Origin: a virus
DNA length: 24,989 nt
IMG/VR virus record: IMGVR_UViG_3300043446_001054
Span: 1 to 24,989 of that record
Reading direction: 5' to 3' (one strand)
Below the pieces are notes generated by a model. That model was given only the letters and a program-made list of their open reading frames with translations. It had not been told where the DNA came from and made no database searches. The translations under genes were made by a program, and so were the position numbers. Positions 328 to 4,126 of this stretch are shown here, piece by piece; position 1 is the first letter of the stretch, and each line of letters starts with the position of its first letter.

Positions 328-732
328 GTGGGAGATAGAGCAAATTTCGGTTTTGTACAGCCGAACGGAAATACAATTGTACTGTACGGACATTGGGCAG
401 GATATCACATGCTTGCCAATTTAGCAGAGGCTATTGCTAAAGCGCAGCCACGTTGGTCGGACCCCTCATATGCAACACGTATCGCAATCAGTCACATGAT
501 TGGGGACGGTTGGTCTATGGAAACTGGATGGGGGCTCCATGTAAACGAGATTGGCGACAATGAGCACAAGATTGCTATTGTCGACTTTGCTCAGATGACG
601 TTCTCATTGCACGAGGAAGATTCATTCTACAACCAAGATAACAAAGTCAGAGGTATGAAGAATGAAGCCTTGTTCACAATGGACCTAAGAGCATTTGTAG
701 AGAAATACACAGACAGCCCTATTCTGGTATAA
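328..732 (+). CDS. Conserved phage hypothetical protein (GTG start)
   Basis: A 134-residue protein starting at GTG 328, 3 bases after the previous stop, with GGAAGAGG just upstream as ribosome binding site. It opens MGDRANFGFVQPNG, an N-terminus I associate with conserved phage proteins of unknown function, and is rich in aromatic residues with no signal peptide or membrane segment. The stop codon lies inside an extended -10 box (725-733) that may start a separate downstream RNA. Last visible gene of this transcription unit. Confidence 0.75.
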   Translation: MGDRANFGFVQPNGNTIVLYGHWAGYHMLANLAEAIAKAQPRWSDPSYATRIAISHMIGDGWSMETGWGLHVNEIGDNEHKIAIVDFAQMTFSLHEEDSFYNQDNKVRGMKNEALFTMDLRAFVEKYTDSPILV

Positions 733-733
733 T
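725..733 (+). promoter_or_regulatory. Extended -10 promoter (TGGTATAAT) at the end of the upstream gene
   Basis: TGG-TATAAT is a TGn-extended -10 box. No good -35 hexamer stands 16-18 bases upstream, which extended -10 promoters tolerate. Transcription would start near 740 and run into a structured 100-base region ending in a strong terminator. The same TGnTATAAT form recurs at 3528-3536, and on the minus strand at 6763-6771, 16134-16142, 18021-18029, 18889-18897 and 22087-22095. Confidence 0.5.
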
Positions 734-739
734 TATCTC

Positions 740-884
740 TACGGCTAAGGCCCATTTAAATGTAGGGTGCGGCTATAGGCATTCGCCAAGTCGCTAAGTA
801 AAGCAGTGTTTACTTAATTCCTTTCGTTTGACTAGCAGCCCTATATATTAATCCCCCAGTAATTGACGACTGGGGGATCTTATT
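740..884 (+). ncRNA. Candidate structured phage small RNA with anti-Shine-Dalgarno segment
   Basis: No ORF of note occupies this interval. TAGGGTGC (763-770) can pair with GCAGCCCTA (835-843) with one bulged G, closing a domain of about 80 nt. Inside it TAAGTAAA (795-802) pairs perfectly with TTTACTTA (809-816). An intrinsic terminator follows at 851-884 and an extended -10 box precedes it. Bases 817-830, left unpaired in this fold, are complementary to 990-1003, the ribosome binding region of the next gene, over 14 positions with one G-U wobble. RNA identity is inference; no known RNA family was recognised. Confidence 0.45.
851..884 (+). terminator. Rho-independent terminator
   Basis: ATCCCCCAGT (851-860) pairs perfectly over 10 bp with ACTGGGGGAT (869-878), with an 8-nt loop, and is followed by CTTATTTT. 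It ends the first rightward unit and the candidate small RNA. Confidence 0.85.
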
Positions 885-916
885 TTGCCCGCAGTAGCTG
901 GGGACCCTATTGATCA

Positions 917-945
917 TTTACGAGATCTAATATAATTTCCCGAAA
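917..945 (+). repeat. Bipartite intergenic element, copy 1
   Basis: TTTACGAGA (917-925), ten bases, then TTTCCCGAAA (936-945). It is one of four copies with identical 10-base spacing (others at 3270, 3863 and 3986), all in intergenic DNA of the rightward arm. The second half is a near-palindrome, as expected for a dimeric regulator's operator. It lies just upstream of the promoter of the 1007 gene and contains a TATAAT at 931-936. Confidence 0.55.
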
Positions 946-948
946 TTC

Positions 949-978
949 TAGACAAATGTCGGTGGCATGATATATAAT
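949..978 (+). promoter_or_regulatory. Sigma-70-type promoter for the 1007-3239 operon
   Basis: TAGACA (949-954), 18-base spacer, TATAAT (973-978). The predicted start leaves a leader of about 20 bases with the ribosome binding site AAAGGAA at 996-1002. It drives the coupled operon beginning at 1007. Confidence 0.65.
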
Positions 979-1006
979 ATGACAACATTCAAGCGAAAGG
1001 AATAAT

Positions 1007-1753
1007 ATGCCAAACTGGGTATATAACGGTTTGACGATTGAGGGAAATCCTGAATCTGTCAAGCAACTAATGGAACAACTAAATAAACCATTCAAGAAAG
1101 TCCATGATTCATGGAATATGGAAACTCAGCAAATGCAAAAGAAATTGCACACATATCCAAATCCTGTATTTGCATTTCACAATATCTATAATCATACAGA
1201 GGATAATGTCCCTGATGTAATATATGAATCACAACCTGTTCATACTCCAAATCAATCACCTGAAGAAATGTTTGCTGGTAATGATTGGTATTCTTGGAAT
1301 GTCAGAAATTGGGGAACTAAATGGGATGTAGCAGTTTCTGCTGATGATAAATATCCTGATACTAATATGGAAGATGCTCCTAATGGTGAGAATCATGTAG
1401 TTCATTATAATTTCAATACTGCTTGGTCTCCGCCTGTTCCTGCCGTCGCCAAATTGTCAAGCCAATATCCAACTCTTCTATTTACACTTAGTTATGAAGA
1501 AGAGACAGGTTGGGGTGGCGAAATGGAATTACTTCGTGGCAAAGTTATCTCAGAATCAGACTATGAATCTAAATGTAGAGATTGTGATGCAGAAGATACA
1601 TTAGATTATTGCGAAGAGGGCTGTGGTCAAATTTGCTCTGCTTGTAATTATATGGGCGAGGCAGACATTGATTGTGTCAAAGAATGTCAGACCCATAAGA
1701 TATACTTGGACGAAGAACATGTACCTGACTATAGAATGGAGCAAATAAAATGA
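1007..1753 (+). CDS. Api92/DUF1281-like phage protein with C-terminal cysteine cluster
   Basis: A 248-residue protein opening MPNWVYNGLTIEG and containing WNVRNWGTKWD near residues 103-113 and YNFNTAWSPPVPA near 134-146. These are the hallmarks of the ferredoxin-like-fold Api92/DUF1281 (YubB-like) family found on phages and plasmids, whose function is unsettled. Residues after about 190 form a separate cysteine-rich tail (CRDCD, CEEGCGQICSAC, C, C) that looks like a zinc-binding module and is not a usual part of the family. The ATG is preceded by AAAGGAA. It overlaps the next gene by ATGA. Translation could be controlled by antisense pairing with the RNA at 817-830. Confidence 0.8.
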   Translation: MPNWVYNGLTIEGNPESVKQLMEQLNKPFKKVHDSWNMETQQMQKKLHTYPNPVFAFHNIYNHTEDNVPDVIYESQPVHTPNQSPEEMFAGNDWYSWNVRNWGTKWDVAVSADDKYPDTNMEDAPNGENHVVHYNFNTAWSPPVPAVAKLSSQYPTLLFTLSYEEETGWGGEMELLRGKVISESDYESKCRDCDAEDTLDYCEEGCGQICSACNYMGEADIDCVKECQTHKIYLDEEHVPDYRMEQIK

Positions 1754-3269: not shown

Positions 3270-3298
3270 GTTACGGGGGTATTTACAAATTCCCGAAA
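3270..3298 (+). repeat. Bipartite intergenic element, copy 2
   Basis: GTTACGGGG (3270-3278), ten bases, then ATTCCCGAAA (3289-3298). This is the most diverged first half of the four copies, but the spacing is identical. The second half lies inside the spacer between a -35 (3282-3287) and a -10 (3305-3310), an ideal place for a repressor to block RNA polymerase. Confidence 0.5.
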
Positions 3299-3310
3299 CT
3301 CATATATAAT
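3282..3310 (+). promoter_or_regulatory. Promoter of the Lsr2-like gene
   Basis: TTTACA (3282-3287), 17-base spacer, TATAAT (3305-3310), followed by a leader of about 23 bases with GAAAGGA as ribosome binding site before ATG 3340. The spacer carries the palindromic half of the bipartite repeat. Confidence 0.7.
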
Positions 3311-3339
3311 AAATACTGATCATAGAAAGGATCAATACA

Positions 3340-3486
3340 ATGGCAACAAAGCGTGAATATCTAGCTCAAAAGGGAATTACTGTTGGCCGCCGTGGCCGAT
3401 TCTCAGCTGCAGCTAAGCAGGCATTGTCAGAGGCGGAAAAGAATGGAATTAAGTTCACCGCTGAAGTCAAGACAGCTAAAAACTAA
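3340..3486 (+). CDS. Miniature Lsr2-like DNA-binding protein, 48 aa
   Basis: This 48-residue basic protein reads REYLAQKGITVGRRGRFSAA in its first half. It aligns with the C-terminal DNA-binding domain of actinobacterial Lsr2, where the pattern is R-E-(W/Y)-x5-G-x2-V-x2-R-G-R and the RGR loop enters the minor groove of AT-rich DNA. The Lsr2 oligomerisation domain is missing, so the protein is DNA-binding domain only. It has its own promoter, a GAAAGGA ribosome binding site and a terminator, which suggests high or independently timed expression. Silencing, or dominant-negative interference with host Lsr2, is inference. Confidence 0.7.
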   Translation: MATKREYLAQKGITVGRRGRFSAAAKQALSEAEKNGIKFTAEVKTAKN

Positions 3487-3794: not shown

Positions 3795-3833
3795 AAGGTG
3801 CAAGTTGGACAAATGTCCGATTTGCACCTTTTG
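3795..3833 (+). terminator. Terminator of the rightward arm
   Basis: AAGGTGCAA (3795-3803) pairs with TTGCACCTT (3822-3830), and an inner GGAC (3807-3810) pairs with GTCC (3815-3818), separated by a symmetric 3-base internal loop. The 3' side runs into TTTT. It closes the rightward arm where it meets the leftward genes. Confidence 0.75.
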
Positions 3834-3862: not shown

Positions 3863-3891
3863 TTTACGAGAATATATAAAAATTCCTGGAA
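3863..3891 (+). repeat. Bipartite intergenic element, copy 3
   Basis: TTTACGAGA (3863-3871), ten bases, ATTCCTGGAA (3882-3891). The second half is a perfect palindromic TTCC-tGGAA type site flanked by ATATATAA. It directly follows the hairpin at 3841-3866. Confidence 0.6.
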
Positions 3892-3985
3892 TATATAACA
3901 AAATGTTATAAAATAAATCAAAATAGATCTAATTTAATCCATTATCTGTCAAAATTTGTCGAATTTGAGCGATCCAAAATCGCTA

Positions 3986-4014
3986 TTTACGAGAGCTATT
4001 GACAAATCCTGGAA
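3986..4014 (+). repeat. Bipartite intergenic element, copy 4
   Basis: TTTACGAGA (3986-3994), ten bases, AATCCTGGAA (4005-4014). It again directly follows a small hairpin (3968-3984), and the ten-base gap contains a consensus TTGACA. A degenerate relative, ATTACGGGAAT, follows the second TTGACA at 4037-4042. Confidence 0.6.
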
Positions 4015-4126
4015 CATATGCATGCATATATGGCTATTGACAACATTACGGGAATATGATAAATGGGGTTCAATTACTCATATATCTATTTAGATAATAT
4101 ATAATAACATTTCGTTACTAAATGAT

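Follow-up and report, generated by a model that had tools for sequence, protein, structure and literature searches.

A phage-encoded structured RNA family predicted to act on the ribosome binding sites of a tagged phage regulon

Small RNAs with a conserved anti-Shine-Dalgarno segment include the CiaR-controlled csRNAs of streptococci. In mycobacteria, B11 lowers expression via pyrimidine-rich loops at ribosome sites (PMC10470900). The same source reports, citing Mai 2019, that 6C acts without chaperones. Among phages, P1 and P7 encode the antisense RNA c4, whose complementary loops block a phage ribosome binding site (PMC12197685). Phage T4 instead uses proteins: RegA silences the translation initiation regions of about 30 phage mRNAs and RegB cuts the GGAG Shine-Dalgarno sequences of early mRNAs (PMC3014915).

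The window analysed here is a viral DNA of 24,989 nucleotides (IMG/VR record IMGVR_UViG_3300043446_001054). The terminase is 60-64% identical to those of Streptomyces phages such as Gilson and BillNye and a WhiB-like gene is present in the window, so the host is probably an actinobacterium. Judging from sequence comparison, positions 740-884 quite likely encode an anti-Shine-Dalgarno RNA that acts in trans and, through a shared tag, represses a phage regulon (Table 1). The initial annotation had proposed a transcript at this position with an extended -10 box, a foldable domain of 80 nt (763-843), a strong terminator and no ORF, and all four elements were recovered. The -10 box occupies the extreme 3' end of the upstream gene, the terminator hairpin (851-878) is followed by CTTATTTT and no long open frame fills 740-884. 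The fold of this interval has a free energy of -51.6 kcal/mol (0 of 200 shuffles equally stable), and its conserved part is the 80-nt domain, which is kept across the family. A -10-like hexamer is found no more than 90 nt upstream of the RNA in 87 of 115 distinct family members and a terminator-like hairpin 3' of it in 80 of the 115. In the approximately 35 relatives that have no recognisable terminator, the RNA may be cut from a longer transcript.

Table 1. Features of the small RNA locus and its neighbouring genes in the window
Feature	Position	Strand	Evidence or remark
Upstream neighbour gene, phrog_31860-like, 134 aa	328..732	+	No target: GAAAG missing from 118/123 leaders
Extended -10 promoter box TGGTATAAT of the small RNA	725..733	+	Sequence; promoter scan TACACA-16-TATAAT with TG
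Predicted small RNA transcript (inferred start and end)	740..884	+	Promoter/terminator, fold z -4.08, family model match
P1 5' strand, pairs with 838-843	763..768	+	Covariation in alignment A1
P2 5' strand GCGGCT, pairs with 789-794	769..774	+	Covariation
P2 3' strand	789..794	+	Covariation
Junction J2/3 UAAGUAAA, conserved	795..802	+	UAARUAAN in family; CUAAG kept in Streptomyces phages
P3 5' strand, pairs with 831-836; arm bearing the target loop	803..807	+	Column pair 65-93: 33 both-side changes
Loop CUUUCGUU, near-invariant, complement of AACGAAAG	821..828	+	Family alignment
P1 3' strand	838..843	+	Covariation in alignment A1
Intrinsic terminator, 10-bp stem 851-878 and T-rich tail	851..884	+	Sequence scan
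Target gene promoter, class TGTC[AG]G-N10-TATAAT	957..978	+	Same element upstream of tagged genes in relatives
Predicted target site, 1 nt and the ribosome binding site CAAGCGAAAGGAAT; complement of 817-831	989..1003	+	Duplex prediction
Predicted target gene, DUF1281_C (Api92-like) protein, 248 aa	1007..1753	+	Pfam PF18406, E 1e-11

Relatives were fetched with the proteins encoded on either side of the RNA (62 and 80 viral loci). In nearly every locus of the first search, the same layout lies directly 3' of the homologue of the upstream gene: -10 box, hairpin, core domain, terminator, conserved spacer and second promoter. Window positions 885-956, 3' of the terminator, form a block conserved in nearly all relatives (GCCCGCA...GGGTA...TTTACG...TTTCCCGAAA) and related to stretches near 3271-3300, 3864-3895 and 3987-4015. 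Elsewhere in the window, a near-perfect hairpin of 16 bp at 3795-3830 (AAGGTGCAAGTTGGACAAATGTCCGATTTGCACCTT), followed by T-rich sequence, is probably a bidirectional terminator.

The family includes 115 distinct core sequences, 73 of which were aligned structurally (alignment A1). They form a three-way junction composed of P1, P2, a conserved UAARUAAN junction and P3, an arm of highly variable sequence and length that carries CUUUCGUU in its loop. The covariation score of these 73 distinct members is 0.372 versus 0.115 in shuffles (0/500), and 94.9% of cells are paired; as a control, sliding the partners by 1-3 columns reduces paired cells to less than 50%. The P2 column pair 16-50, for example, is GC in 35 members, CG in 26, AU in 10 and UA in 2, and is broken in 0 of 73. 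Columns 52 and 56 (window 794 and 798) switch between C/G and U/A almost always jointly (GCTAAGTAA or GTTAAATAA), which may point to a tertiary contact within the junction. The consensus fold differs from the single-sequence minimum free energy structure, which uses a local TAAGTAAA/TTTACTTA hairpin. Positions 756-850 score 90.7 bits with the family model, a trivially high value as the window row is in the model. The mean unpaired probability of the loop is predicted to be 0.62 versus 0.46 with shuffled flanks, so its accessibility is only moderate.

No Rfam family matches the 740-884 region at or above its gathering score, and at a permissive threshold only a chance match to NsiR1 was obtained. 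The Rfam covariance models of 6C/B11 and of the c4 antisense RNA do not match the window RNA either, and a blastn search of the first 8 kb of the window against phages gave no matches. A scan of bacterial genomes with the scaffold pattern gave 26 scattered matches, read as chance, among which no host or prophage was recognised. By its sequence and covariation, then, 740-884 is a member of a previously undescribed family of structured phage RNAs.

Within the window, 817-830 (ATTCCTTTCGTTTG) is complementary to 990-1003 with a single G-U pair, as the initial annotation had noted. The best duplex extends this pairing to 15 bp (-21.5 kcal/mol). Its energy is nearly unique: only 4 of 4160 window segments on both strands are as low, and those four are overlapping tiles. 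None of 2000 shuffled loops reached this energy, and one of 400 shuffled pairs had a complementary run of at least 14. The 1007 gene has the only visible target leader in the window, with AAGCG rather than AACG. Action in trans on its mRNA, as first suggested, gains support from relatives, in which the RNA and the complementarity are kept together; an interval present but with its pairing not conserved would have spoken against it, and was not what the relatives showed. Action in cis upon read-through was also raised at the outset; in most relatives a terminator separates the RNA from the downstream gene. Compensatory changes of loop and leader are few because the loop is nearly invariant. Two further leaders put forward at the outset, near 3320 and 3550, were rejected as targets: they pair weakly (-10.9 and -7.6 kcal/mol), the AAC extension is absent, and homologues of the Lsr2-like gene at 3340-3486 have AACGAAAG in 0 of 63 leaders of RNA-bearing loci. 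The Shine-Dalgarno sequence of this gene (window 3310-3340) lies in a short inverted repeat in many relatives (e.g. CTATCATAGAAAGGATAG and TATCTTGAAAGGATA), suggesting that it may be under its own translational or operator control.

The tag is found before many genes of the relatives. The fetched loci have 1043 occurrences of AACGAAAG, of which 864 precede start codons, in 67 protein clusters; many of the sites away from start codons are the RNA loops themselves. AAC precedes 832 of 1735 GAAAG leaders, well ahead of any other form. Each of 24 RNA-bearing records of 104-120 kb has 4-13 AACGAAAGG-ATG sites (0-2 with the reversed pattern as control); in most near-complete genomes the sites listed are on the strand of the RNA and within about 10 kb around its gene. 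The predicted target genes include those of DUF1281_C (the window 1007 gene) and DUF932 proteins, and most others encode small proteins of no known function. A TGTC[AG]G element, spaced 10 nt from the -10 box that follows it, lies no more than 60 nt upstream of 791 of 870 AACGAAAG..ATG sites. Tagged genes are thus mostly the first genes of transcription units with a common promoter signature, and their mRNAs are predicted to start just a few nt upstream of the tag. Lying between where the -35 and -10 boxes are usually found, the TGTC[AG]G element may serve as an activator site or an operator. Among the members inspected, the promoter of the RNA does not have this element, and so the RNA is probably controlled separately from its targets. 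The tag overlaps the Shine-Dalgarno sequence 6-13 nt from the ATG, while its distance to the -10 box is more variable. Based on these sites, the regulon would comprise about 4-13 transcription units per genome, mostly outside the 25-kb fragment, and would be larger than was initially apparent. A C before CUUUCGUU in the loop goes with G as the leader base in 94% of cases, and with A or U there, A is accepted in 27-30%; this covariation of flanking bases is weak and phylogenetically confounded.

The RNA and the tag are, with few exceptions, present or absent together. Some of the RNA-bearing records were gathered with a pattern that contains CTTTCGTT and with it the loop; the tag played no part in the choice of the RNA-negative records or of the leaders. 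When whole records were searched with the family model, 41 of 45 candidate negatives proved free of any RNA of the family; of the remaining four, G070 is a true positive and L336, L334 and L483 are scaffold variants whose loops differ. Records have 0-3 tagged leaders without the RNA versus 2-13 with it. The CGAAAG leader is found in RNA-positive versus RNA-negative records before 119/125 versus 0/24 orthologues of the DUF1281_C gene, 96/109 versus 1/20 of the DUF932 gene, 110/115 versus 3/21 of the 140-aa gene and 86/88 versus 1/9 of the 152-aa gene. At these genes RNA-negative relatives have different ribosome sites, often AGAAAGG. The Lsr2-like homologues in RNA-bearing loci provide an internal control, and their leaders are mostly TGAAAG or AGAAAG.

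In the DUF1281_C tree, RNA state and leader are concordant in 165 of 173 rows. RNA state changes on six well-supported independent paths; the leader follows in 4.4 of these on average and goes in the opposite direction in none. With so few supported transitions, a sign test on independent pairs does not reach significance (median p 0.125). Recombination that moves the RNA and a neighbouring leader together could also be a source of the co-occurrence. One record (L089/G069) has eight tagged leaders and no RNA, and its DUF1281_C protein is identical to that of an RNA-bearing relative. Its positions 3880-3960 show an apparent clean loss of the small RNA gene, apparently by recent deletion or through assembly collapse. 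The co-occurrence, together with the leader switch in orthologues, strongly supports maintenance of the RNA-tag pairing in evolution.

The proposed mechanism would operate as follows. The three-way-junction scaffold would present the unpaired CUUUCGUU loop on arm P3. This loop would base-pair with AACGAAAG(G), the tag that several phage mRNAs carry at their 5' end, overlapping the Shine-Dalgarno sequence. The targets would be the 1007 mRNA (CAAGCGAAAGGAAT) in the window and, in relatives, the first genes of the transcription units around the RNA gene. Pairing would mask the ribosome site, so that translation of the whole tagged set would be repressed at once. Conserved structure, conserved loop, matching tag on many genes and RNA/tag co-occurrence come directly from the comparison; from these we infer transcription of the RNA, duplex formation in the cell, the repressive effect and its timing. 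The RNA has three properties of a trans-acting anti-Shine-Dalgarno small RNA: a discrete conserved structure, a conserved unpaired segment complementary to a ribosome binding site and maintained pairing. That the effect is repression is suggested by the position of the site and by analogy with B11 (PMC10470900).

Several other explanations would account for parts of this pattern. AACGAAAGG might simply be the best Shine-Dalgarno sequence for the hosts, with the loop resembling 16S rRNA for that reason, as a decoy or by coincidence. GAAAGGA matches the actinobacterial 16S tail, whose usual end is CCUCCUUUCU, and many members have UCCUUUC in the loop; with a host 16S tail ending in CCUUUCGUU the tag would be an ordinary extended Shine-Dalgarno sequence. 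This is very unlikely, however, as the same RNA-bearing genomes use other Shine-Dalgarno sequences elsewhere (for example, before the Lsr2-like gene) and AGAAAG takes the place of the tag in close relatives that lack the RNA. The conserved AAC also lies beyond the Shine-Dalgarno pairing and would not be needed to pair with the actinobacterial 16S rRNA tail, and AACGAAAG is kept even where the Shine-Dalgarno sequence is shifted downstream (AACGAAAGAAGG leaders). A related idea, that the RNA mimics the 16S rRNA 3' end (GGUGCGGCU and CCUUUC), was abandoned, since GGCU changes from lineage to lineage along with P2. A shade less probable still is that CCTTTCGTT/AACGAAAGG is the DNA site of a phage transcription factor, present in leaders and, reversed, within the RNA gene. 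Transcriptional co-regulation does exist, as the leaders share a second conserved promoter element at fixed spacing, but the tag varies less in its distance to the ATG than to the -10 box, has the sense orientation in every leader and the antisense one in the RNA, and in the RNA forms the loop of a covarying, length-variable arm.

Other readings accept the pairing and differ in its outcome or its partners. The RNA might activate or stabilise the mRNAs by 5'-end protection, or deliver them to a scaffold-bound protein. Pairing would also cap the 5' end, given mRNA starts predicted a few nt before the tag, and the persistence of the scaffold without the loop in other phages points to a second function. 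However, pairing covers the Shine-Dalgarno sequence itself and the closest studied analogues repress (B11, PMC10470900; RegA, PMC3014915), which makes activation unlikely, though not negligibly so. Host mRNAs as the main targets, with phage leaders as sponges, are the least probable alternative: in the viral records compared, the tagged genes are phage genes clustered in cis, and loss of the RNA goes with loss of the tag, as would be expected of phage targets.

The scaffold appears to be older than the loop. The family model finds it in Gilson (28 bits, E 2.8e-4) and, weakly, in BillNye (19.5 bits, E 0.03), and Blast extends this to 25 and 10 records. The Streptomyces phage scaffolds have compensatory changes in P1 and P2 and keep CUAAG, and the CUUUCGUU loop is absent. 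These unannotated, covarying homologues in isolated phages (Stanwilliamsviridae; NC_048742.1, 107939-108015, and NC_042105.1, 115861-115938) occupy an intergenic gap located a few kb past the Lsr2-like gene. The three scaffold variants (L334, 2748-2818; L336, 2994-3059; L483, 7249-7328) have a P3 with a different or minimal loop (CTGGGGGTGTT, CCTCGAAAA and GCGCTTAGGCGC, respectively); no leader tag matching these loops and no clean compensatory loop swap was found in them. These sequences suggest an older RNA to which the targeting arm was added in a lineage-specific manner. There is perhaps an even chance that an ancient actinophage scaffold has an exchangeable targeting arm, and that one lineage evolved the loop and a cluster-wide mRNA tag as an RNA-programmed regulon switch while others have other loops or none.

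The family is common across freshwater viromes, with over 190 contigs matching the patterns, and the RNA-bearing viruses probably infect freshwater actinobacteria. The tag provides a ready prediction of every target, close relatives with and without the RNA offer a natural on/off comparison for the coevolution of small RNAs and targets, and the scaffold in isolated Streptomyces phages opens its function to bench study.

Of the known systems, the csRNAs are alike in their conserved anti-Shine-Dalgarno segment and differ in being host-encoded with an unrelated fold. Mycobacterial 6C/B11 are likewise actinobacterial structured small RNAs with unpaired pyrimidine loops, many ribosome-binding-site partners and repression (here proposed). 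They are, however, host RNAs with C-runs for G-rich sites, while the RNA described here is encoded by a phage, has another fold and the loop CUUUCGUU, and has targets with a co-evolving tag. Like c4 of P1 and P7, it is a phage RNA with loop complementarity to a phage ribosome binding site; c4 is described for one operon (ant) and for lysogeny and immunity, whereas many separate transcription units would be targeted here, and no prophage copies were recognised among the genome matches of the RNA. As with RegA of T4, one phage factor would serve many phage mRNAs. Unlike the proteins RegA and RegB, this factor would be an RNA using a common sequence tag, and if the model is correct, a lytic phage would dedicate an RNA to silencing a phage regulon through a tag at the ribosome site, as T4 does with the protein RegA.
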